Positions 5,551-15,231 of a DNA stretch of 64,000 nt are shown piece by piece. Position 1 is the stretch's first letter. Each line of letters begins with the position of its first letter. The notes below the pieces were generated by a model. That model had not been told where the DNA came from and ran no database searches. It saw nothing but the letters and a program-made list of their open reading frames with translations. Origin of the DNA: Pandoraea sputorum (lineage in GTDB: Bacteria; Pseudomonadota; Gammaproteobacteria; Burkholderiales; Burkholderiaceae). A program made the translations under genes and the position numbers. Location: NCBI RefSeq assembly GCF_000814845.2, contig NZ_CP010431.2:1-64000 (forward strand), in the 5' to 3' direction.

Positions 5551-5588
5551 TGGTTGTTGTAGATAGCCGCATAACCTAAGAATCAGGG

Positions 5589-5620
5589 ACCCATAAGTTG
5601 AGAAATTTATGGGTCTTTTT
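5589..5620 (+). terminator. rho-independent terminator after gyrB
   Basis: ACCCATAA (5589-5596) pairs with TTATGGGT (5607-5614) around a 10-nt loop, followed by CTTTTTTATT. It closes the dnaA-dnaN-gyrB block and marks the left edge of the accessory segment. Confidence 0.9.
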
Positions 5621-5893
5621 TATTGATGGCTTAGATTTATTGGTGATTCATCGTCAGGCCGCCGCCCTTTAACGAATCTCCACTAGCACCGGCACAATTT
5701 TGCTTCACCACATACCGATGTGAACGCCCAGGGACCGCTGGGTGTGTTCCATTCCGCGCAGGTAAGCCAGATTGTGCAAGTGCTGGAAGACATTCGACAT
5801 CGAGCCGTTGCTTAGTAGCGTTGTTGCAGCTGCGCAAACGTTGCGTCATGGAGCATATGCCGGCCTTGGGACGAACACCGAAATGTATGCTTG
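5621..5893. other. gap between gyrB terminator and accessory cassette
   Basis: No convincing gene. A plus-strand reading frame ending at the TAG at 5813-5815 gives an orphan tail (about 5720-5812, containing GPLGVFHSAQVSQIVQVLED) that looks protein-like, but it has no start. I do not recognise it. It may be a relic left by insertion of the cassette to its right. Confidence 0.3.
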
Positions 5894-6559
5894 TCAGATA
5901 CCCAAATTAAGCTGCATGGGTGCTGGCGACGCGGCCCTTCGCCATAGCCACGCATCGAATTCCCGCCGCGGCACCGCGAGTAGGTCCGCTGCGCAGCAAA
6001 ACGACCTTCGCAAAAACTGGTAGTCGTCGTTCTCCACGCCGACCTTCTTCGCGAACGTGCGCACATGGCGGTCGACTGCGATGGAGTCGATTCCGACGAG
6101 GCAAGCCATATAATCGACTGTTTTGGGACCAACGCCATTGATGCCTTGAATGGCGTGGCAAAACTCCTCGCACGCCAGGCGTGCCCGAAGGTCATCGGCT
6201 CGGTCAACGTCCCACTGCGCGAGATAGTGGACTAATGCCTCGAACCGTGTCACTTTCTCGTGATGGCGCCAGTTCAGGAATACTCCAGTCCTGTGCTCCT
6301 TAACCAATGTCACCAACGAAGACACTGAATCCATCTCGGGATAGGTTCGCAGAATGGCCAATACACGCGGACGAACAACAGTCGTGTAATTGAGCCCGGC
6401 TTGGAGCACTGAGTCTGCAAGTACTGCCCCGACATGCTCGCATGTGGCACGCGGGACTTTCTGCTCGCGAAGTGCACCCTCATCCTTGGCATAGTCAGCG
6501 ATACGACGCGCTGCAAGCAGAATGTCGATGGCGGAGCTCTTCGTTCCAGCCGGTCTCAT
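5894..6559 (-). CDS. OGG-like helix-hairpin-helix DNA glycosylase
   Basis: 221 aa if started at the ATG at 6559, which overlaps the QueC-like stop as ATGA. The centre carries an HhH-GPD core: INGVGPKTVDY followed by IAVDRHVRTFAKK. Aligned by eye with OGG1, the Lys of GVGPK matches the catalytic lysine of bifunctional glycosylase/lyases and the Asp of VDRHV matches the conserved catalytic aspartate. The N-terminal part is alpha-helical and lacks obvious sequence kinship to housekeeping MutY or Nth; there is no Fe-S cysteine cluster. Last gene of a four-gene coupled unit. An OGG-like gene beside a QueC-like gene is also the arrangement of type IV CBASS ancillary genes. The substrate (DNA lesion, modified base or nucleoside) is unknown. 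Confidence 0.75.
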   Translation of the reverse strand: MRPAGTKSSAIDILLAARRIADYAKDEGALREQKVPRATCEHVGAVLADSVLQAGLNYTTVVRPRVLAILRTYPEMDSVSSLVTLVKEHRTGVFLNWRHHEKVTRFEALVHYLAQWDVDRADDLRARLACEEFCHAIQGINGVGPKTVDYMACLVGIDSIAVDRHVRTFAKKVGVENDDYQFLRRSFCCAADLLAVPRREFDAWLWRRAASPAPMQLNLGI

Positions 6560-7176
6560 ACCAGTCCCGCGTCTTTGAGTGCATTGAGCCGCTCGACGCA
6601 ATTGGGGCACGCACCGCACGGGAACTGTCCGGAGGCCTGGCAAGAATACGTTCGTCCGATTGGCACACCCAGTTGGAGCGCCGCACGGGCCACGTCTGCC
6701 TTCGACGAGTAGCGGAACGGAGAATGGAACCGCACTGAACCAATGCTCGATGTAAGTCCGTCGAGGCTGTTCATAAATGCAGTAGTGCAGTCAATTTCTT
6801 TGGCATGGTTGCTATTGATAAAGCCGGTGTACACGTCCAGGATGCCGATGGTTTGCGCCCGAGCCGCAGCTGCTGCGAAGAAGAGCATGGTCCGGTATGG
6901 AATGTATAGGTCATCGTCTTTGATTTCCTCATTCCACAAGTCGGCCTCGCGTATCAAGCGCGACTGCGACCCCCTGAACAGGTCTGATATGTCATTCCTT
7001 TCCGGTCTGCGCATACTTGCAGGCAATACCTCGTTGACGCGATTCCACTCAACTTCTGCGCAATGCTGCCCGTAGTCGAAGAACATGGGTACGACGTCAA
7101 CCCGCTCCGACGCGAGTTGGTATGCAACTGTAGTTGAGTCGAGTCCGCCAGAGGCCAGAAGAAGAACTTCTTTCAT
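6556..7176 (-). CDS. QueC-like 7-deazaguanine (preQ0 synthase family) enzyme
   Basis: 206 aa. QueC converts 7-carboxy-7-deazaguanine to preQ0 using ATP and ammonia. Seen: the PP-loop SGGLDSTT at residues 9-16, FDYGQ near 34, the family segment YIPYRTMLFF in the middle, and the C-terminal zinc motif CQASGQFPCGACPNC. It is shorter than housekeeping QueC (about 225-245 aa) and its middle is divergent. No queD, queE or folE lies nearby, so a role in queuosine synthesis is unlikely; QueC relatives in defence loci (type IV CBASS Cap9, QatC) are the better comparison. Coupled by ATGA overlaps to the genes on both sides. Confidence 0.85.
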   Translation of the reverse strand: MKEVLLLASGGLDSTTVAYQLASERVDVVPMFFDYGQHCAEVEWNRVNEVLPASMRRPERNDISDLFRGSQSRLIREADLWNEEIKDDDLYIPYRTMLFFAAAAARAQTIGILDVYTGFINSNHAKEIDCTTAFMNSLDGLTSSIGSVRFHSPFRYSSKADVARAALQLGVPIGRTYSCQASGQFPCGACPNCVERLNALKDAGLV

Positions 7177-8504
7177 GGCAATTCGGCCCTCAATTTGGCC
7201 AGCACGTCGAAGACGCCGTTAAGACAAGTATCAAGGTCCGCAGAGTATACAGAACTCCCGACAACGACCATGGTGTTGTTGTTCTCGTTTCTTGGGTCAA
7301 ATGTGATGACCGGTTTTCCCAGTGCGATGGCCATACCTAATTCTACGAGCGCGCCGGGGTCCTTCCCAAGCGGTACAGCGAAGACTGCAGCGCTGTCGCG
7401 CAATAGCTGACAATCCTTGTGATATGTGCGATGCAAGTCAGCCCGACTGGCTGGCGGCGCGAGCTCCCCGTTCTCCTGGACCGGGCGTCGAACCAGGAAG
7501 TTGTGGTACTCCAGACTCTCGACAGCGCGCTCAAGCTCCGGCTTATAAACATAGGAGAAATCCGGTGCGGCAACATAGATGGGAAACCGCTGACGGTCAT
7601 GCCATGGCAGGAATGTACCGCCCAATCCGCACAGCATGTCGACCGTCAACCTCAAGGTCCGTTGTACGTCCCGCTTGAAGTCATCCGGATACGTAGTCTG
7701 GGAGTAGCATGTCGCGGCCTGGCACCCACGCCATGCTGCTTCAAGCCAGCCCCTGCTTGAGAAACCGACCATAACGGCCGAATAGACGTCACCCACTCCG
7801 ACCGAATTCACCGTGCTTCCCAATGACGCCGGAATCTCGTCGACACTGTTGGTCTTGAAATGAAAAAGTCTGCTCCCGCCGCGATTCTCCTTCAGGAGGA
7901 AGACTTCCGGCAATAGTGTCTTAACTTCAGCAAGCAAATCGTCGACCCTCTCTTTTCCGGTTGCTGCAAAGAGTGGCGACGAGGTCGAGATGACTATTGC
8001 GTCTGTACGTCCGCGGAAAGCTTGGAGCGAAGACAGGTCTTCGACGTCATATGCGATGTCAAGCGTGAATTTTGCGTCGGGCGAAAATTCTCCTATCAAT
8101 TCTGTGACGTCAAACTTGCCCGGGAAGATAACTACCTTTCCGTAGTTCTCTAGGTTTGGAGAATGCTCGCGCAGCTCCACTCGCTTGCTTTCGCGCAGCA
8201 AATCCTCGTAGCCCTGGTGAGAGACTTCTGTCGGGTCGCCGATGACGATGACGTTGGGTGACCCGACGACGTCACCGAGCCAGATGAACTCTTTGCAACC
8301 ATGTGCCGAGAGGTAACGGCGCGCCTCGTCTGCGAGGTACTGCGGACAAAAGGCCGCAACTGAGTACTCCAGTCCGGACGCCCAGAGACCTCTTGCCGCG
8401 TGGACGACGCCGCCTAACCGAAGTTTACAGGGGACGTCCTTGCGGGCAAGAGTGAAGTCGATAACAACTTCCCCAACAATCAATACCGCGTCAGTGTGGA
8501 CCAT
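7173..8504 (-). CDS. PfkB-type kinase fused to nucleoside 2-deoxyribosyltransferase
   Basis: 443 aa from the ATG at 8504, placed two bases after the stop of the preceding small gene. Residues about 1-285 resemble PfkB/ribokinase kinases: the early Gly-Gly motif (LGGVVHAARG) and the catalytic loop NSVGVGDVYSAV, where the usual GAGD is GVGD with the aspartate kept. Residues about 300-443 resemble nucleoside 2-deoxyribosyltransferases: IYVAAPDFS, then CQLLRDSAAVFAVPLG, DPGALVELGMAIALGKPV with the expected catalytic Glu, and an Asn-rich ending. The two halves would handle a nucleoside sugar and its base. I infer that it makes, frees or recycles a (deaza)purine used by the neighbouring QueC-like protein. 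No such fused enzyme is familiar to me. Confidence 0.75.
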   Translation of the reverse strand: MVHTDAVLIVGEVVIDFTLARKDVPCKLRLGGVVHAARGLWASGLEYSVAAFCPQYLADEARRYLSAHGCKEFIWLGDVVGSPNVIVIGDPTEVSHQGYEDLLRESKRVELREHSPNLENYGKVVIFPGKFDVTELIGEFSPDAKFTLDIAYDVEDLSSLQAFRGRTDAIVISTSSPLFAATGKERVDDLLAEVKTLLPEVFLLKENRGGSRLFHFKTNSVDEIPASLGSTVNSVGVGDVYSAVMVGFSSRGWLEAAWRGCQAATCYSQTTYPDDFKRDVQRTLRLTVDMLCGLGGTFLPWHDRQRFPIYVAAPDFSYVYKPELERAVESLEYHNFLVRRPVQENGELAPPASRADLHRTYHKDCQLLRDSAAVFAVPLGKDPGALVELGMAIALGKPVITFDPRNENNNTMVVVGSSVYSADLDTCLNGVFDVLAKLRAELP

Positions 8505-8506
8505 GA

Positions 8507-8890
8507 TTATTGTGGGACGAAATCGCCTTCGATTGACGGCATCGGTGCAAGCGCTGAAGACTTGACGATTCCGATGTAGGTGGCTCCCTCCGCGAGGCAA
8601 CCAGCAAGGTAGTTGAATGACGTGGGAAGCGCGCCAACCTTAAGGCCGTTTGCATCAATCGCGAAAACGCGTCCTGCGACAATGATGCCGAGCTGCGTTC
8701 CAGGAGCGGGAACTGCTTTATGTGTCCCGTAGTAGTCGCATTGAGCTACCTCTTCCAATACACATGAGAACGCCTGCTTGCATCGGTCAACGCCGCTTGC
8801 CCCACCGCCGGCGCCTGCCCCTTTGCTCGCATTTTCTGGTTGCTTCGAACCGGAATAATCCGAAAAACTGCCTGAACCTGTGCTTCCCAT
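8507..8890 (-). CDS. small protein with Met-Gly-Ser-Thr-Gly N-terminus
   Basis: 127 aa, first gene of the coupled unit. The N-terminus MGSTGSGSFSDYSGS is a flexible Gly/Ser tail, followed by a Lys/Gly/Ala linker. A compact domain (about residues 35-125) contains three cysteines and the segments LGIIVAGRVFAIDANGLKVG and LPTSFNYLAGCL. After removal of Met the mature N-terminus would be glycine. I recall published work in which QueC-family enzymes of defence loci conjugate a 7-deazaguanine to a partner's N-terminal glycine; this protein is placed and built like such a partner. The ATG at 8890 follows AGGAG about 12 nt upstream. No enzyme motif seen. Confidence 0.75.
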   Translation of the reverse strand: MGSTGSGSFSDYSGSKQPENASKGAGAGGGASGVDRCKQAFSCVLEEVAQCDYYGTHKAVPAPGTQLGIIVAGRVFAIDANGLKVGALPTSFNYLAGCLAEGATYIGIVKSSALAPMPSIEGDFVPQ

Positions 8891-9195
8891 AATGTTTCCG
8901 TCTCCTGGTTAATGCAGTTCCTGCTTGCAACGATGCGCTGCGCAGGCAAGTTTAGTCGCACGACAAAAGAGTTGGCCGTTCCATTCGAGAAATACATGTG
9001 CGTTCAAGCGCTGACATTCCTCAGTGAACTGCTGGCCGCGAATTAACTACTTTATCTGGAAGAATTTTTGCCCTTTGTGATAGACGATATTCTCGTAGGT
9101 CAAAGTCGAAATTGCGATACAAGTTGGCCAGTGCCATGGTGACTTCCGAATTCCGAGGGAAAGTCGACGCCAGGCGATTCAGACTGAAGCTACGT
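8891..9195. other. 305-bp spacer inside the cassette
   Basis: No gene seen on either strand. It separates the GHKL nuclease from the coupled four-gene unit, so it may carry a minus-strand promoter for the latter. I could not pick out a convincing -35/-10 pair. Confidence 0.35.
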
Positions 9196-11259
9196 TCAAA
9201 GCATCGGTATTTGCAGCTTTTCAAAAAACGCGCGATTTCGCTTTTTAGCGTCGTCCAGCATCTTGTCATACGAGAGAATTTCGATGTAGCAATTCAGCTG
9301 AGTGTGGAACTTAAAATACCCTGCGCCGTCCGGCGTGACCATGAAGTCTCGGGTAAGTGCTATGTCTCGTATCTTGGGAGTCAGGGTGCACACGATGTAC
9401 GCATAAAACGGCGTCGTTTCCGCAACTTCTATGGTTCTGCCTTCTTCCGTTTTGGCTTTGCCGTCACGAAGTTTTCGAGCGTAGCGTATAACCTGCTCGA
9501 CGGGGTCTTCCTCCGTTGATGGGTATTCGTTGCGCTCGGGGCGTTTGAACTCAACGATTACGGCAGAGTTGAAGCTGCGCTTCGCCTCAGCAAACACTTT
9601 CGCGGAATTGAAAACGACGATGTCAGGTTCGTCTTTTTCGTCAGAATTGACTACTTTGAGCCGACTAATCGGCAGGTCGGACCCAAGGTACCAGTGGTAC
9701 GCTAGGCGTTCGTCGATGACCCAAAGATTCTGCCGGTCGAAGTCAACGTCATCGGAGCTTGCACGCATCGGAAAGATGATGCTGTGAACAGCTTCTTCCT
9801 TCACGTAGCGTCCGTCGTCCTGCGTTTCGAGAGCTTTGTCGAGAAGCTCGAGGATGGTCCTACGATGCACCACATATCTGGCCAGAGCCGCCTGGCCAAG
9901 CTCGTTCTCCTCACGAAGGAATTGCTCGCGCAGTTGCTTGTACGCTTCATTATTCCGGTGACCATCGAGCGGCAGACTCTCAATCTGCCGCGCCTGCTCT
10001 CTGTGGGCGAGTTCAATATCCTTCTGGACTTTATACAGCTCAATGTCCAACTGGTCGTCGGATACATTTGGGGAGATGCGGTCAATGTACTGGCCATACC
10101 TTTCGCCAAGCATGAAGCGGTACTGCGGGGCCTTGTTGGCGACCAGCGTTTCGATGTTTCGTCGCTTCTCTTCACGCAACGTGTTCATGTACGGGGCCGC
10201 CGCGCTCTTCACGACGTCCGTCACTGCCGTGTCGAGCTGTGGTCGACTCAGCTCATCATCGAGTTCGAGCTCGTCTTCGCCGGATAGAACCAACTGCGTA
10301 CGAGATGAATCAACACGCGAATCGAGGTATTGCCCGAACACATACGTCTTGAAAACAAACGACTTACCCGTGTCATCGACGAATCTTGTTTTGAAGTCAG
10401 GAACACGTGAACCTACGCCCCAGGAGACGACCTCCCGCTTGTTGGCGCAGTAGGAGACGGTGTGCCGCCGATTCAAACTGGAGTCAAAGCGAACAATGAC
10501 CGCGTTCAGCGTGTGGTTGCCGACCGTGAATTTATGTGCGGTTGTACGGGTGTCGGCCTCGGCGCGGAAGTACTCGTTCAGATTGATTGGTTCGTGCTCG
10601 TCATCGTGAATCCACACCGCTGGGCATCCGGGGCTTAGAAAGTAAATGACAAGGTGGTCAATAATTTTCTGCGCCAGAGTATCGAGCGATTTCGGAAAAT
10701 GCTTCTGATATTCCGACCTAATGTTGAGCAGCTTTACCGTCGTCTTTACTTCGCTGGCTTCGCTAAGGTCGAGCGTTTCGTTCTCGACACCTTCCTCTGA
10801 TTTCCGAAACTCGAAACTGCGACGATAGCGTTCGTCGCCCTGGTTGTAAACGCTCTCAATCGTCGCCTTCTCAAACACCTTGAGCCACGTGAAGCGCCCG
10901 ACGCCCTTGTTCCCCTTTGCTGCTTTGCGGGTCGAATCGGAGACGAAAAATGCCTTTGCGTTAATGTCGGAAAACCCGCCACCGTTATCCACGATGGTGA
11001 CATCGCGAATTGCGCCCAGGTAGTCGTCGCCACTGTCGATTAAGCGACCCTGCCTGTCGTCTCGGTGGAAATAGACATCAATGCGTCCGTCTTTGCGTGC
11101 TGACTCGTCAATTGACTCCAGAGAGTTGACGATGCATTCAAAGACCGGGATGTACGGCTGCGTAATGGGAAGGGCAAGGTTTTCCACTCGCCCTGCAATA
11201 TCAACGTGCATAGAATTCCCCGTGTCTGGCGTCTTATGTTTTTTCGACTTGAGCAGCAT
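9196..11259 (-). CDS. GHKL ATPase with C-terminal PD-(D/E)xK-like nuclease domain
   Basis: 687 aa. The N-terminal third is a Bergerat-fold (Hsp90/MutL/GyrB) ATPase: N-box VFECIVNSLESID near residue 40, the nucleotide motif VDNGGGF near 90, and the lid GNKGVGRFTWLK near 115. A helical, charged middle follows. The C-terminal region has EPDIVVFNSA and, about 20 residues later, VIVEFKRP, matching the D...ExK core of restriction-type nucleases. GHKL proteins of this layout occur in anti-phage loci, and I infer a sensor or effector role. The ATG at 11259 was kept because a charged leader precedes the conserved MHVDIAGRVENLALP; a start at 11211 is the alternative. Same strand as, and upstream of, the QueC-like unit. 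Confidence 0.75.
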   Translation of the reverse strand: MLLKSKKHKTPDTGNSMHVDIAGRVENLALPITQPYIPVFECIVNSLESIDESARKDGRIDVYFHRDDRQGRLIDSGDDYLGAIRDVTIVDNGGGFSDINAKAFFVSDSTRKAAKGNKGVGRFTWLKVFEKATIESVYNQGDERYRRSFEFRKSEEGVENETLDLSEASEVKTTVKLLNIRSEYQKHFPKSLDTLAQKIIDHLVIYFLSPGCPAVWIHDDEHEPINLNEYFRAEADTRTTAHKFTVGNHTLNAVIVRFDSSLNRRHTVSYCANKREVVSWGVGSRVPDFKTRFVDDTGKSFVFKTYVFGQYLDSRVDSSRTQLVLSGEDELELDDELSRPQLDTAVTDVVKSAAAPYMNTLREEKRRNIETLVANKAPQYRFMLGERYGQYIDRISPNVSDDQLDIELYKVQKDIELAHREQARQIESLPLDGHRNNEAYKQLREQFLREENELGQAALARYVVHRRTILELLDKALETQDDGRYVKEEAVHSIIFPMRASSDDVDFDRQNLWVIDERLAYHWYLGSDLPISRLKVVNSDEKDEPDIVVFNSAKVFAEAKRSFNSAVIVEFKRPERNEYPSTEEDPVEQVIRYARKLRDGKAKTEEGRTIEVAETTPFYAYIVCTLTPKIRDIALTRDFMVTPDGAGYFKFHTQLNCYIEILSYDKMLDDAKKRNRAFFEKLQIPML

Positions 11260-12313
11260 TGGTGTTCATTTTCATGAGGCGAGGCACTCTCGCCAACGGT
11301 TCACCATGCGGTCAATAAGATACCTTACAAATCGTCATTTTGGTAAGCTCATTCGAGCCGTCTAATGGCAATGAGAGGTATTTTCTGCTATTTCAAATGT
11401 AAAGTTAATCAACGTGAAGATAATAGACAATGCTGGTCGCGTTACCATGATTTTCGGAAACCTGTATATCAACATTTGAGCGAGCGGCAAACGAGCAGCC
11501 AAGAGCTCAATTTTCCCCGTAGCGTTGATTGCCAGAGAAATTCACCTGAGATTTGGCGGGACTACTGGGGAATCTCGGAAATTACCCACGTGCCTTGAAA
11601 ATTCTTCCCGTATTGACTACGGTAAAGCGGTGACAGCGCAATGCTGGCATGCAGATTGCAGAGACAGCCTATGTACGAAGTTGCGACCCGCCCACGCGGT
11701 CGAGCCCCTATTTATGAGAGGGTGCGACGAAGGTGCGGGCGATGGAACAGGCCATATTCTGGATGACTTGGGGGTAGTTTTGCGGCGCAAGGCAAAGCGT
11801 CGTGCTTCTGCCATCGCCGTTTCGAGGAACGCCAGTCTGCTTTGCCCGAAGCGCCGACGGGCAGCCAGGGGCTACGAAGGGGAATCGGGCCACGACGCCA
11901 GTTTTCACTCAGTCAGTCGCGGCCACAAGCTAGGCACGCTGCATTACCCTGATTCGTCCGCTTGCAACGAAATGGCCGGTGTTCGTACCCGCCATGTCGC
12001 GCACCGCAACGCTGACTTCCGACACCTTGTAACGCTGACGTTACAAGGATGTAACGCGAAAAAAATTTTCACCGAGAAAATCCCTTCGCAGCTAATCATT
12101 TTTTACGATTTTGGGCGTAACGTCGGCGAAGGCGCATCTATTTTTTGCGAAAATACTTTCAGTAAGCTGCGCGGTTCATAGTTCGATTGACCGCCTGATG
12201 CTTGACAGCAACCGCACTTCATTTTCGTACGTGCCCACTTTCACAGGGTGGTCTACACGCGTCACAACGCGCTCCCTGGGCAACGCGCTACGGCGCAATG
12301 CCGGAGGTGCGCT
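11260..12313. other. 1-kb AT-rich stretch without a convincing gene
   Basis: The stretch is markedly more AT-rich than the core genome, especially 11340-11540 and 12050-12180. An open frame from 11525 to 12181 exists on the plus strand, but its product is compositionally odd and matches nothing I know. The stretch holds a perfect 10-bp inverted repeat at 12025-12048 plus a third copy of TGTAACG at 12050. It probably carries the upstream regions of the GHKL gene (minus) and the TnsA-like gene (plus), and perhaps decayed insertion debris. Confidence 0.4.
12025..12048. repeat. perfect inverted repeat CCTTGTAACG / CGTTACAAGG
   Basis: Ten-base arms at 12025-12034 and 12039-12048 are separated by CTGA, and the heptamer TGTAACG recurs at 12050-12056. 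There is no T-tract, so it is not a terminator. It may be a binding site for a regulator or a transposition protein of the accessory segment, but nothing here proves which. Confidence 0.6.
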
Positions 12314-13087
12314 ATGAGTCCAACGCCAGCATCCTACGGCCGGCGCGGCCGTCTGAACTCGGCCAACACCGGCATCCGTCACAACGCTTCAACGTACGGC
12401 GAGGCCAAGCTCGGCACCTATTGCGAGAAGGGGGATGGCCATCTCATCGTCGAATCCGAAGCTGAACGATTTGTCGCGCATCTTCTTGCCATTGACCCAC
12501 GCGTCAGGGCCTTTCAGCCGCAGCCGTTTTGCGTCGATTTGATTGACCAGCGCCTGCTGCTCACGCGGCAGGCTGTGCGCGAAGCATGGCACAGGCATCG
12601 CGACGTGCCAGGGCCAAAGTTCTACACAACCGATTTCAGCATTGACTGGCAAGACGGTTTGCACGATGCCGTTGAGGTCAAGGTCGAGGGATTTGAGGGC
12701 GACGACGTGTACTGGGCCAAGGTCGCCCGGGCCCGTTCGATTCTGGCTGCCAATGGTTACCCACTGCGCACAGTCGTCCTTCCTGCGAGCGAGGCCCATC
12801 CTGTACGGATGAATTCGAGGATGCTCAAACAGGCGACCCACCAGACTCGTGCGTACCTGACCGACGAACTTGTTGAGCGCGTCACACGTCGCTGCGAACC
12901 AGGCCCCGTCCTGTTGCACGTGTTGTGTTCGGACCTTGCGCTTTTGCCAGGTCTGATTCCCGTCTTGTTAGTGGCTGGTGTGCTCAGCGCGGACCTCGCT
13001 CGTAACCGCATCTGCGGCACGCTCGAGTTGTCCCTAGCGTATGGCGACCTCGACCACCTCTGCCTGCTGGAGGGCGTCGAAAAGTGA
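12314..13087 (+). CDS. TnsA-like transposon endonuclease, solitary
   Basis: 257 aa from the ATG at 12314, which has an excellent GGAGGTGCGCT ahead of it. The N-terminal domain matches TnsA-type restriction-like nucleases: VESEAERFVAHLLAIDP (catalytic Glu), then KFYTTDFSIDW (Asp) and AVEVKVEG (E-x-K type ending). TnsA cuts 5-prime transposon ends together with TnsB in Tn7-like elements. The C-terminal half resembles the TnsA C-terminal region only loosely. No tnsB, tnsC, tnsD or tniQ gene lies in the window. It is either a remnant of the element that delivered the neighbouring cassette or a domesticated nuclease belonging to the island. A 68-bp hairpin follows directly. Confidence 0.65.
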   Translation: MSPTPASYGRRGRLNSANTGIRHNASTYGEAKLGTYCEKGDGHLIVESEAERFVAHLLAIDPRVRAFQPQPFCVDLIDQRLLLTRQAVREAWHRHRDVPGPKFYTTDFSIDWQDGLHDAVEVKVEGFEGDDVYWAKVARARSILAANGYPLRTVVLPASEAHPVRMNSRMLKQATHQTRAYLTDELVERVTRRCEPGPVLLHVLCSDLALLPGLIPVLLVAGVLSADLARNRICGTLELSLAYGDLDHLCLLEGVEK

Positions 13088-13098
13088 CGGAAATCGGT

Positions 13099-13166
13099 CC
13101 GGAAATGAACCGGCCCCCAAGGGTTGGATTCACGTCCAACGCTTGGGGGCCAGTTCAAATCTCCGG
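13099..13166. repeat. long near-perfect hairpin after the TnsA-like gene
   Basis: GGCCCCCAAGGGTTGGA (13112-13128) pairs with TCCAACGCTTGGGGGCC (13135-13151) with one mismatch and a 6-nt loop. TGAAC/GTTCA and CCGGA/TCCGG extend the symmetry outward to 13099 and 13166. It sits between convergent genes but lacks a T-tract on either strand. It may be a bidirectional terminator or the end of the accessory segment. Confidence 0.65.
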
Positions 13167-13199
13167 ACGCTCTGAATTGCCAGCGCGCACTCGCAGTGT

Positions 13200-14579
13200 T
13201 CACATGGAAATCGGAATCCTTCCGAGTGCCACGGCACAGCCGAGTAACACGACAGAGAATCCCCAGACGGTAAGCAGTGAATAGCGGATGTGCCGACCCA
13301 TCTCGAGGTTTGCCAACCCGAGAGCTAGCCAAAGGGCGGGCGAGAACGGGCTGATGAAGGTGCCGACGATGTTGCCGATTGTCATCGCATAGAGGGTTGC
13401 CGAAGGTGACACACCGAAGCTCGATACCACTTCCTGAACGACGGGTAACAAGCCGAAGTAATACGCGTCCGTGCTCAACACCAACTCCATCGGCGCACCG
13501 AAGAATCCCAGTACAAGGTGCAGATGGGGCGTCAGCGCGGTCGGCAGGACTTGCGTCAGATCGCCGGCCATCGATTTGAGCATGCCGCTACCGTCCATAA
13601 TGCCCAGAAAGGCACCGGCAGCCATGATGATCGAACTCATCACCAGCGCATTAGGGGCATGCATCTTGATACGCTCGATCTGGTCGCGCGCGTTCGGGAA
13701 ATTGATGGAGAGCGCCACGGCGAGACCGATCATGAAGACGTAGGTGGACGGCAGCGCGCCTGTGACAAGTCCCGCCAATACCATGACGAAGATCGCACCA
13801 TTGAGCCACATCAGTCTTCGATGCCCGAACCCGTTGCACACAACGACGTCATCGACGGAGCATTTCTGACTGCTCGATTCACCAGCCCCGGCGTCTATCG
13901 ACCGCCAGTCGTCAATTCGCTCATCGCCCTCTTCCGACAACGACACACCAGAGGCGCTTAACGCACGTGCCCGCTTTGCCTCCCTAAGGCCAAGCAGCAC
14001 CGCCAGCATGACCAGCAACACCACGCCGATCCCCTGAATCGCGATCAATGGCCGCCAAAGCTCCGTCGCCTCGATACCGGATACGACCGCGGCCCGACCG
14101 AGCGGGCCCGCCCACGGCGTCATGTTGAAAATTCCCGCACCAAGTGTGAGCAGCATGAGCATCAGGTACGGACTCATGTTCAATCGCCGATACAGCGGTA
14201 GCAGTGCCGGAATCGTGAGAAGGAACGTCGTAGCGCCCGCGCCGTCGAGATGCGCGACCATGCCGAGCAACGCCGTCCCGACCGTGACTGCGATCACGTT
14301 GCCGCGCGTCGCCACCAACATTGCGCGCAATAGTGGACGAAACAGCCCCGCATCCTGCACGACGCCGAAGAAGACAATGGCGAACATGAACATCGCCGCC
14401 ACCGGCATGACCTTGAGCAAACCCGAACTGAAGAACGCGCCGATCTGATCGACGCCGAATCCGGCAAGTGCGGCACCGATCAGAGGCACCAAGGTAAGGC
14501 CGACGATGGGATTACTTCTGCGCGTGAGCAACAACCCAACTACGACAACGATGATTGCAACACCGACTGCTGTAAGCAA
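13200..14579 (-). CDS. CitMHS-family citrate/proton symporter
   Basis: 459 aa integral membrane protein with about twelve hydrophobic segments and a polar central loop (about residues 205-255), the layout of CitM/CitH metal-citrate:proton symporters. Conserved segments include AHLDGAGATTFLLTIPALLPLY and NMTPWAGPLGRAA in the first half and FGAPMELVLSTDAYYFGLLPV and GTFISPFSPALWLALGL in the second. The start is TTG at 14579, set by AGGAG six bases upstream; no ATG fits. It lies downstream of the formamidase genes but behind their terminator, so it is probably a separate unit. The exact tricarboxylate and metal cannot be read from the sequence. Confidence 0.88.
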   Translation of the reverse strand: MLTAVGVAIIVVVVGLLLTRRSNPIVGLTLVPLIGAALAGFGVDQIGAFFSSGLLKVMPVAAMFMFAIVFFGVVQDAGLFRPLLRAMLVATRGNVIAVTVGTALLGMVAHLDGAGATTFLLTIPALLPLYRRLNMSPYLMLMLLTLGAGIFNMTPWAGPLGRAAVVSGIEATELWRPLIAIQGIGVVLLVMLAVLLGLREAKRARALSASGVSLSEEGDERIDDWRSIDAGAGESSSQKCSVDDVVVCNGFGHRRLMWLNGAIFVMVLAGLVTGALPSTYVFMIGLAVALSINFPNARDQIERIKMHAPNALVMSSIIMAAGAFLGIMDGSGMLKSMAGDLTQVLPTALTPHLHLVLGFFGAPMELVLSTDAYYFGLLPVVQEVVSSFGVSPSATLYAMTIGNIVGTFISPFSPALWLALGLANLEMGRHIRYSLLTVWGFSVVLLGCAVALGRIPISM

Positions 14580-14823
14580 ATCCGTCTCCTGTTATGAACG
14601 GTGTGGATGTGGAGCGGTGTCAGGACGTGAGCCGTTGTTTGTATCGGATCGTGACGCGTGAGGCGCCGTGTCGGAACCCTGACAGGCATTAGGCGGGAAG
14701 ATGTCGGACGTTCAGCAGTCTATCGTCTGAAGCAACGGCGATTTCGGGGAATAATCCCAAATGTTGCCGCATCGACGGGATGAGGCGATTTTCCAAAGCG
14801 AGATGGCGTGGATTGTGATGCAA
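14580..14823. other. intergenic gap upstream of the CitMHS gene
   Basis: Should hold the promoter of the CitMHS gene. I see no convincing gene; a minus-strand open frame (14689-14886) is short, runs through the terminator hairpin and is not recognisable. Confidence 0.4.
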
Positions 14824-14859
14824 ACAAAAAGCCCCTCGAATCTTGCGACCCGAGGGGCT
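14824..14859 (-). terminator. rho-independent terminator of the formamidase operon
   Basis: On the minus strand AGCCCCTCG pairs with CGAGGGGCT (14830-14838 and 14851-14859) around a 12-nt loop and runs into TTTTTG. It lies just after the fmdB-like stop. Confidence 0.88.
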
Positions 14860-14892
14860 ATCACCTGTCAAACCAGCACCAAACAAGAAGTG

Positions 14893-15231
14893 CTAATGAC
14901 TGATCATCCACGGCCTGCCTGCGGGACGTTTAAACCCTTCTGAGGCCGCTGTCCCTGCGAGAGCAACCTTCCCTCCCGAGCAGCAGCTACATCCCGCCCG
15001 ATGCCTCAGCGTCGACGCATCTCCGGATTGCCGTGGTGCATTCGCAGCGCGTTCATTCGTCGCATGCGCGGAACGGCTTGCATTCCCCATCAACGCCAAC
15101 GCTGGCGCGGATATAACTCTCGACCCTTCCCCTCCACACTCAGGGCAATGACACGGGTCATCACGATCTGCAATCCGTCGCATCACCGCAAACGTCCCGC
15201 AGCGCCCACATTCGAAGTCGTATATCGGCAT
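14893..15231 (-). CDS. FmdB-family zinc-ribbon protein
   Basis: 112 aa from the ATG at 15231 (MPIYDFECGRCG), preferred over an ATG five codons earlier because the family begins MPxYxFxC. The N-terminal zinc ribbon has the CGRCG and CPECGGEG cysteine pairs; the C-terminal half is low-complexity and ends with a further RAGCSCCSGG cluster. FmdB proteins accompany formamidase/acetamidase genes and are thought to regulate them. It lies 25 bp downstream of the formamidase gene and shares its terminator, consistent with one operon. Confidence 0.85.
   Translation of the reverse strand: MPIYDFECGRCGTFAVMRRIADRDDPCHCPECGGEGSRVISAPALALMGNASRSAHATNERAANAPRQSGDASTLRHRAGCSCCSGGKVALAGTAASEGFKRPAGRPWMISH

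Follow-up and report, generated by a model that had tools for sequence, protein, structure and literature searches.

The window analysed here, a 64,000-nucleotide stretch of the Pandoraea sputorum genome, holds five minus-strand open reading frames (ORFs) between gyrB and a transporter gene. Four of them make up a conserved operon encoding, in the direction of reading, a small protein with a distinctive N-terminal tail, a fusion of PfkB and NDT (nucleoside deoxyribosyltransferase) domains, a QueC-like ligase and an OGG-like helix-hairpin-helix (HhH) protein. On balance we favour reading this operon as a third system for QueC-dependent modification of protein N-termini, one that also serves in anti-phage defence, because the QueC-like enzyme and the floppy MG[ST] tail of the small protein match the pair published for the type IV cyclic-oligonucleotide-based anti-phage signalling system (CBASS) and for Qat. 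Taken by themselves, a role in defence is likely, and QueC-dependent modification of the small protein somewhat less so. Literature searches, for which bioRxiv and most subscription papers lay outside coverage, found no paper on the four-gene system. In the relevant passages of the papers cited below, protein deazaguanylation is shown for type IV CBASS only, with Qat as a proposed case. A third such module, mobile and with a very small substrate that is easy to recognise, would offer a simple test bed, in which the fate of the base after conjugation would become directly testable.

The tailed small protein and the QueC-like enzyme

The small protein gene (127 amino acids; 8507..8890, minus strand) starts with ATG and has a good ribosome-binding site, the likely element being AGGAG at 8902..8906 (minus strand) as read from the sequence. 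Its product, in which an MG-S/T N-terminus precedes a HIRAN-like domain, is the likely substrate of the QueC-like enzyme, a role that was missed in an earlier note made from the sequence of this region. The genes and features described there proved to be real. Among the best 120 of 280 homologues, 114 begin with MGS[ST]. The consensus of the tip, MGS[ST]GSGxF[ST]DY, is the best-conserved segment of the protein, with a mean top-residue fraction of 0.86 over residues 1–12 as compared with 0.38 for residues 13–28, 0.80 for residues 29–37 and 0.63 for residues 38–127. This conserved tip, encoded by codons 1–12 (MGSTGSGSFSDY; 8855..8890, minus strand), is modelled with low confidence and predicted to be disordered (mean predicted local distance difference test score 49 for residues 1–10), and its Gly2 is the proposed modification site. 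For the rest of the protein the predicted fold is that of a HIRAN domain, the HIRAN-like part comprising residues 38–127 (8510..8779, minus strand). It differs from the HIRAN domains of HLTF, Rad5 and the Hachiman protein HamB in that it stands alone, carries the conserved N-terminal tip and has no helicase in the same chain. The HIRAN domain of HLTF binds DNA 3' ends. A sequence search of the PDB gave a single weak match, to an S-layer protein (E 0.045), which was not credited as a relationship.

The QueC-like ligase (206 amino acids; 6556..7176, minus strand) matches PF06508 with E 4e-31 and retains catalytic and zinc residues. Against the QueC equivalog model it scores 94.2 bits, below the cut-off of 150.3 for a canonical preQ0 synthase, and it has EIDC, with Glu127 and Asp129, where canonical QueC has YPDC. 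Its zinc signature is CQ(x)6CxxCxxC. Among the window proteins, NCBIfam models identified nothing beyond QueC, under its cut-off, and a TnsA-like protein, matched weakly. We rejected the idea that this gene is an ordinary queuosine duplicate on account of the EIDC motif, the score below the equivalog cut-off and the presence of a canonical QueC elsewhere in the host (C1:180503), where a QueD-family gene lies at 181894. The precursor pathway gene QueD is present in all four genomes checked.

In type IV CBASS the CD-NTase (cGAS/DncV-like nucleotidyltransferase) has an MGGS tip, and the QueC homologue Cap9 attaches a deazaguanine to the N-terminal Gly of this protein, as described in PMC11996544 and PMC13279940. 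According to the second of these, the MGTS tip of QatB is essential and probably modified likewise. The window operon resembles type IV CBASS in having a QueC-family enzyme, an OGG-like protein and a disordered MG-S/T tip on the partner, and its QueC-like protein, besides the PF06508 match, finds Cap9 (9nto) with E 1.8e-8. The base-reading Asp of QueC and Cap9 is kept, as it is in 14 of 14 aligned QueC proteins of the four-gene and sister systems. The window operon differs from type IV CBASS in that searches of it with Pfam and PADLOC found neither a CD-NTase nor a TGT-like Cap10; the partner is HIRAN-like and a PfkB-NDT protein is present instead. QatABCD shares the QueC-family enzyme and the tailed partner (MGTS in QatB), whereas Pfam scans of the window operon and the adjoining ORFs scanned found no KAP ATPase (QatA) and no TatD (QatD), and the partner is HIRAN-like where QatB is helical. 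QatC is defined by N- and C-terminal extensions and by Thr/Thr replacing Tyr/Asp (PMC13279940), while the window enzyme lacks the extensions, has Glu127 and Asp129 and carries Asp where QatC has Thr. A separate locus on a Pseudanabaena plasmid (L119, 6941-9439) is type IV CBASS-like, with QueC, a protein in the Cap10 position and a CD-NTase starting MGGSGGGFF.

Four conserved genes and a GHKL neighbour

The conserved unit is four genes and not five. A PfkB-NDT alignment was run against one genome per species (84,980 species) and gave 59 loci, to which 10 loci from viral contigs and five used from plasmids and other genomes were added. The order small-NDT-QueC-OGG on one strand was found in all 54 complete genome loci, in all 8 complete viral loci of the 10 and in all 5 plasmid and other loci, every one of which is complete; these counts are not independent, since certain contigs recur among the loci of different scans and there are near-duplicates among the genome loci. 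Two of the five incomplete genome loci end with the contig (L033, L052) and three (L060, L067, L068) have only partial PfkB-NDT matches and look like operon remnants; both incomplete viral loci are cut by a contig end. In the genome scan the hosts include Burkholderiales, Enterobacterales, Rhizobiales and Rhodobacterales together with five Bacteroidota loci, at 34-73% identity, a scatter over unrelated groups. The annotation table of one locus omits the tailed small gene, which is nonetheless there (L008, 11621-12001).

Scans of viral contigs, which overlap between the PfkB-NDT, QueC and small-protein queries, gave the same association. Of the best 80 of 280 QueC matches, 79 loci were kept: where QueC has at least 50% identity, the small and NDT genes are present in 15 of 15 loci and the OGG gene in 13, the remaining two being at a contig end, and the 64 loci with QueC at or below 34% identity carry none of the small, NDT and OGG genes. 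Rows missing from alignment-based scans carry no weight as evidence of absence. In the small-protein scan NDT is present in 13 of 14 loci and the 14th stops at a contig end. The fusion is sparse among sampled genomes. It occurs in 2 of 398 genomes of the phylum, including its own, the other being a distant 29% match (L079), and in 3 of 200 genomes of the family, again including its own, where no other genome of the same genus carries it. In phage records no PfkB-NDT was found, and the sister PfkB-NDT query described below gave NDT-domain matches only, in four Enterococcus phage records.

Within the window, the PfkB-NDT gene (443 amino acids; 7173..8504, minus strand) encodes both folds as matched by Pfam, with GxGD and DxGxxxExG motifs. 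The OGG-like HhH gene (221 amino acids; 5894..6559, minus strand) matches the PADLOC OGG model with E 1.9e-6, and its Lys146 and Asp163 are invariant in 7 of 7 aligned proteins. The small protein gene is separated from PfkB-NDT by 2 bp, and ATGA overlaps join PfkB-NDT to the QueC-like gene and the latter to the OGG-like gene. Scans of the operon region for promoters and terminators gave chance-level results only.

The fifth ORF, a GHKL-type ATPase gene (9196..11259, minus strand), had been included by the earlier note in a compact five-gene cassette, with the GHKL-nuclease as its sensor or effector. It does adjoin the operon on the same strand, in a shared variable stretch after gyrB. A gap of 305 bp separates it from the small protein gene, however, and a GHKL relative is present in only 1 of the 74 loci (L026, E 5e-15; flanks are short in some loci). 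Among 20 other genomes of the genus, 3 have GHKL relatives, and no PfkB-NDT match was found in those three where it was searched. The gene is thus a neighbour outside the unit, the five-gene composition was rejected on co-occurrence, and a GHKL sensor or effector is hardly credible; of the proposed cassette the small, NDT, QueC and OGG genes stand as the conserved part. The note had counted it against a cassette if the four smaller genes were always found without GHKL and with ordinary queuosine genes. The first is very nearly the case and the second was not seen.

Sister operons and the base-handling step

The 29% PfkB-NDT match led to a group of sister operons, which are carried by plasmids of Pseudomonas, Citrobacter, Synechocystis, Roseivivax, Methylocystis, Agrobacterium, Moraxella, Rhizobium and haloarchaea. 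In all 11 of those examined (L079-L087, L120, L121) the gene immediately preceding PfkB-NDT is a tailed one, and it is unannotated in L083 (7630-8001) and L085 (7609-8004). Its products start with MSGS, MSGG, MSSG or MTGT in nine bacterial operons and with MGGG in the two haloarchaeal ones, and the window-type and sister families match each other in a profile comparison with probability 94.8 and E 5e-8 over 105 columns. The two haloarchaeal MGGG-tailed proteins (L087, 6916-8004; L120, 6369-7004), encoded before PfkB-NDT and QueC, apparently have two copies of the C-terminal domain, and that of L087 matches the HIRAN model with E 0.011, under its cut-off.

The zinc signature CH(x)5CxxCxGCxK is found in eight of the nine sister operons whose QueC was aligned (L079-L086 but not L087). 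This is the signature of QueC Cluster 4 of Libby et al. (PMC13329287), where PfkB-NDT occurs in ~89% of neighbourhoods; the neighbourhood is read there as purine salvage, and the relevant passages name no small protein beside PfkB-NDT. The window operon is like Cluster 4 in that PfkB-NDT adjoins a short QueC, and a tailed small protein that is profile-related to the window's is found here in the sister operons; it is unlike it in having CQ(x)6C in place of CH(x)5C. We accordingly rejected assigning the window operon to type IV CBASS, to Qat or to Cluster 4, on the missing CD-NTase and TGT for the first, the missing QatA, QatD and QatC features for the second and the differing zinc signature for the third. 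Salvage of purines or deazapurines, in which the QueC-like, NDT and PfkB proteins recycle bases and nucleosides, agrees with the salvage-type folds of NDT and PfkB and with the published interpretation of Cluster 4. It would predict neither a strict linkage to tailed HIRAN-like and OGG-like proteins, nor the defence neighbourhoods and variable insertion described below, nor a tailed TIR protein in a sister operon, and we regard it as highly improbable. Cluster 4 can instead be re-read as probably part of a defence family.

The tailed TIR protein occurs in operons of Rhizobiaceae (L088, 7995-12389; L089, 7995-12357; L122, 6953-11364), with the order PfkB protein, TIR protein of ~467 amino acids, OGG, QueC and a 155-residue protein starting MGGG[GS]. 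Both scanned examples of the latter contain a ThsB_TIR domain (E 7e-23 and 9e-26). In the two scanned, the ~467-residue protein combines TIR with a weak Pfam match to TGT (E 0.0014 and 6e-5), and the TGT part of one such protein aligns with E 2e-15 to a protein from a fetched CBASS locus; this protein is encoded between QueC and the CD-NTase and has no Pfam match of its own. The sister operons keep the same logic: the partner is a tailed HIRAN-like protein in the group with the Cluster 4 signature and a ThsB-type TIR protein, likewise tailed, in Rhizobiaceae. In all three TIR-TGT operons the DxGxxxExG motif of NDT is lost, whereas it is intact in 12 of 12 other aligned PfkB-NDT proteins. No TGT was noticed in those 12 operons, though not each was searched for it. 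NDT and TGT therefore look like alternatives, in a small sample of three loci of which two are close, and the earlier suggestion that the NDT-kinase takes the place of the TGT gains comparative support.

The TIR genes in and beside some sister operons also favour small-molecule signalling, in which a nucleotide signal is produced or broken down by NDT and PfkB and sensed by the small protein, whose tip serves a purpose unconnected with QueC chemistry. TIRs often signal with nucleotides. Such a scheme does not account for the strict linkage to QueC (the small and NDT genes accompany QueC in all 15 viral loci where it has at least 50% identity), and we find it quite unlikely. Modification of DNA or tRNA bases is a further alternative: QueC, NDT and the kinase would make a deazaguanine deoxynucleotide for DNA, with OGG as its eraser. 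NDT and PfkB could indeed build a modified deoxynucleoside monophosphate, and 7-deazaguanines are found in the DNA of phages. This scheme accounts for neither the conserved N-terminal tip nor the tailed TIR sister, no transglycosylase or polymerase was seen in the operon, and the QueC-like protein is without the YPDC aromatic, so that we consider this alternative very unlikely.

Under the favoured reading of N-terminal modification, the small protein would lose Met1 and so expose Gly2 of GS[ST]GSG. With ATP, the QueC-like enzyme would activate a carboxylate-bearing guanine-type base, most likely 7-carboxy-7-deazaguanine, which the host queuosine pathway could supply, and the activated base would be joined to the Gly2 amine as Cap9 does on the type IV CBASS CD-NTase. 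NDT might then add or swap a (deoxy)ribosyl group on the protein-borne base and PfkB phosphorylate it, in replacement of the TGT (Cap10) of type IV CBASS; that NDT and PfkB act on a protein-borne base at all is a tentative suggestion. Through its HIRAN-like domain the tagged protein would reach DNA ends or forks, and there the tag, together with the OGG-like protein, would act on invading DNA. The scheme points to a general rule: a partner with a Gly or Ser tail, a ligase of the QueC type and an enzyme that handles the base, either TGT or NDT.

More speculatively, and with rather low probability, the protein may itself be turned into a nucleotide: QueC would put the deazaguanine on Gly2, NDT (TGT in the sister) would mount this base on deoxyribose or exchange it into DNA, PfkB would phosphorylate it and HIRAN would seat it at a DNA end. 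If so, a protein-nucleotide or protein-DNA conjugate would block phage replication or mark foreign DNA, OGG acting as a partner or an eraser, and one tag-and-mount chemistry would serve swappable tailed partners, namely the CD-NTase, QatB, the HIRAN protein and the ThsB-type TIR.

Two features of the surroundings of sister operons are recorded here. In L080, L081 and L082 (~9786-11973) the operon is followed by a nitroreductase-like gene (Pfam, L080), with OGG and DNA adenine methylase genes on the opposite strand, and in L083 a VUT-family gene annotated as queuosine salvage lies nearby (10501-11040).

Defence neighbourhood and the variable insertion

Neighbouring genes were sampled as up to 3 ORFs on each side of 57 genome loci and compared with PADLOC at E <=1e-10. 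Removal of 12 ORFs of the near-duplicates L022 and L061 from 310 left 298, of which 247 (48 of the 57 loci) were scanned; random regions served as the control, with 122 of 146 ORFs scanned (17 of 20 regions). The two neighbour batches matched 372 and 206 PADLOC families and the control 10, figures that are not gene counts, many models matching one gene, and that come from a taxonomically narrower control. The contrast in defence families is still large. The first 25 families shown for each neighbour batch include Septu PtuA and PtuB, type I and III restriction-modification, AbiEii, Old and dGTPase (9 proteins); the control batch is without Septu, restriction-modification, AbiEii, Old and dGTPase, and mad3, mad2 and AriA appear in both neighbours and control. 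The plasmid relatives adjoin anti-phage dGTPase, restriction endonuclease and TIR genes. The earlier idea of a deazaguanine-type QueC defence module is now the best reading, with neighbours strongly enriched in defence families.

Several observations, the limits of the PADLOC comparison among them, weigh against a Cap9-like modification system for defence. The position of the base-stacking aromatic of Cap9 is Glu127 in the QueC-like protein, so the base may differ from that of Cap9, and in sequence searches this protein is closer to solved canonical QueC (E 1e-11 and 2e-9) than to Cap9. None of 56 small-protein members matches the Pfam HIRAN model PF08797. Ser or Thr follows Met in the nine bacterial sister proteins, which weakens a strict Gly rule. 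Finally, the operon is also found on viral contigs, which could mean a phage-borne role.

The region holding the operon is a variable insertion. In the relative G512 the stretch 5625..14971 is absent, the end of gyrB (5624) being followed by the sequence from 14972 with 130 bp between, and the relative G585, with a gyrB protein of 100% identity (rounded), is without window positions 5555-13086 and has 1.5 kb of its own there. In the favoured reading the four-gene module is mobile. Repeats identified no clear insertion ends. The transporter-like gene at 13203-14579 (minus strand) has no match in 20 other genomes of the genus and was for this reason unusable as a right flank. In the same variable stretch, an ORF at 12251-13087 on the plus strand weakly matches a TnsA-like endonuclease (Pfam E 0.0042 and NCBIfam E 0.0061, both below cut-off). 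A 23-nt inverted repeat, 91% complementary with a 6-nt loop, lies at 13106-13157, where synteny with G585 resumes.

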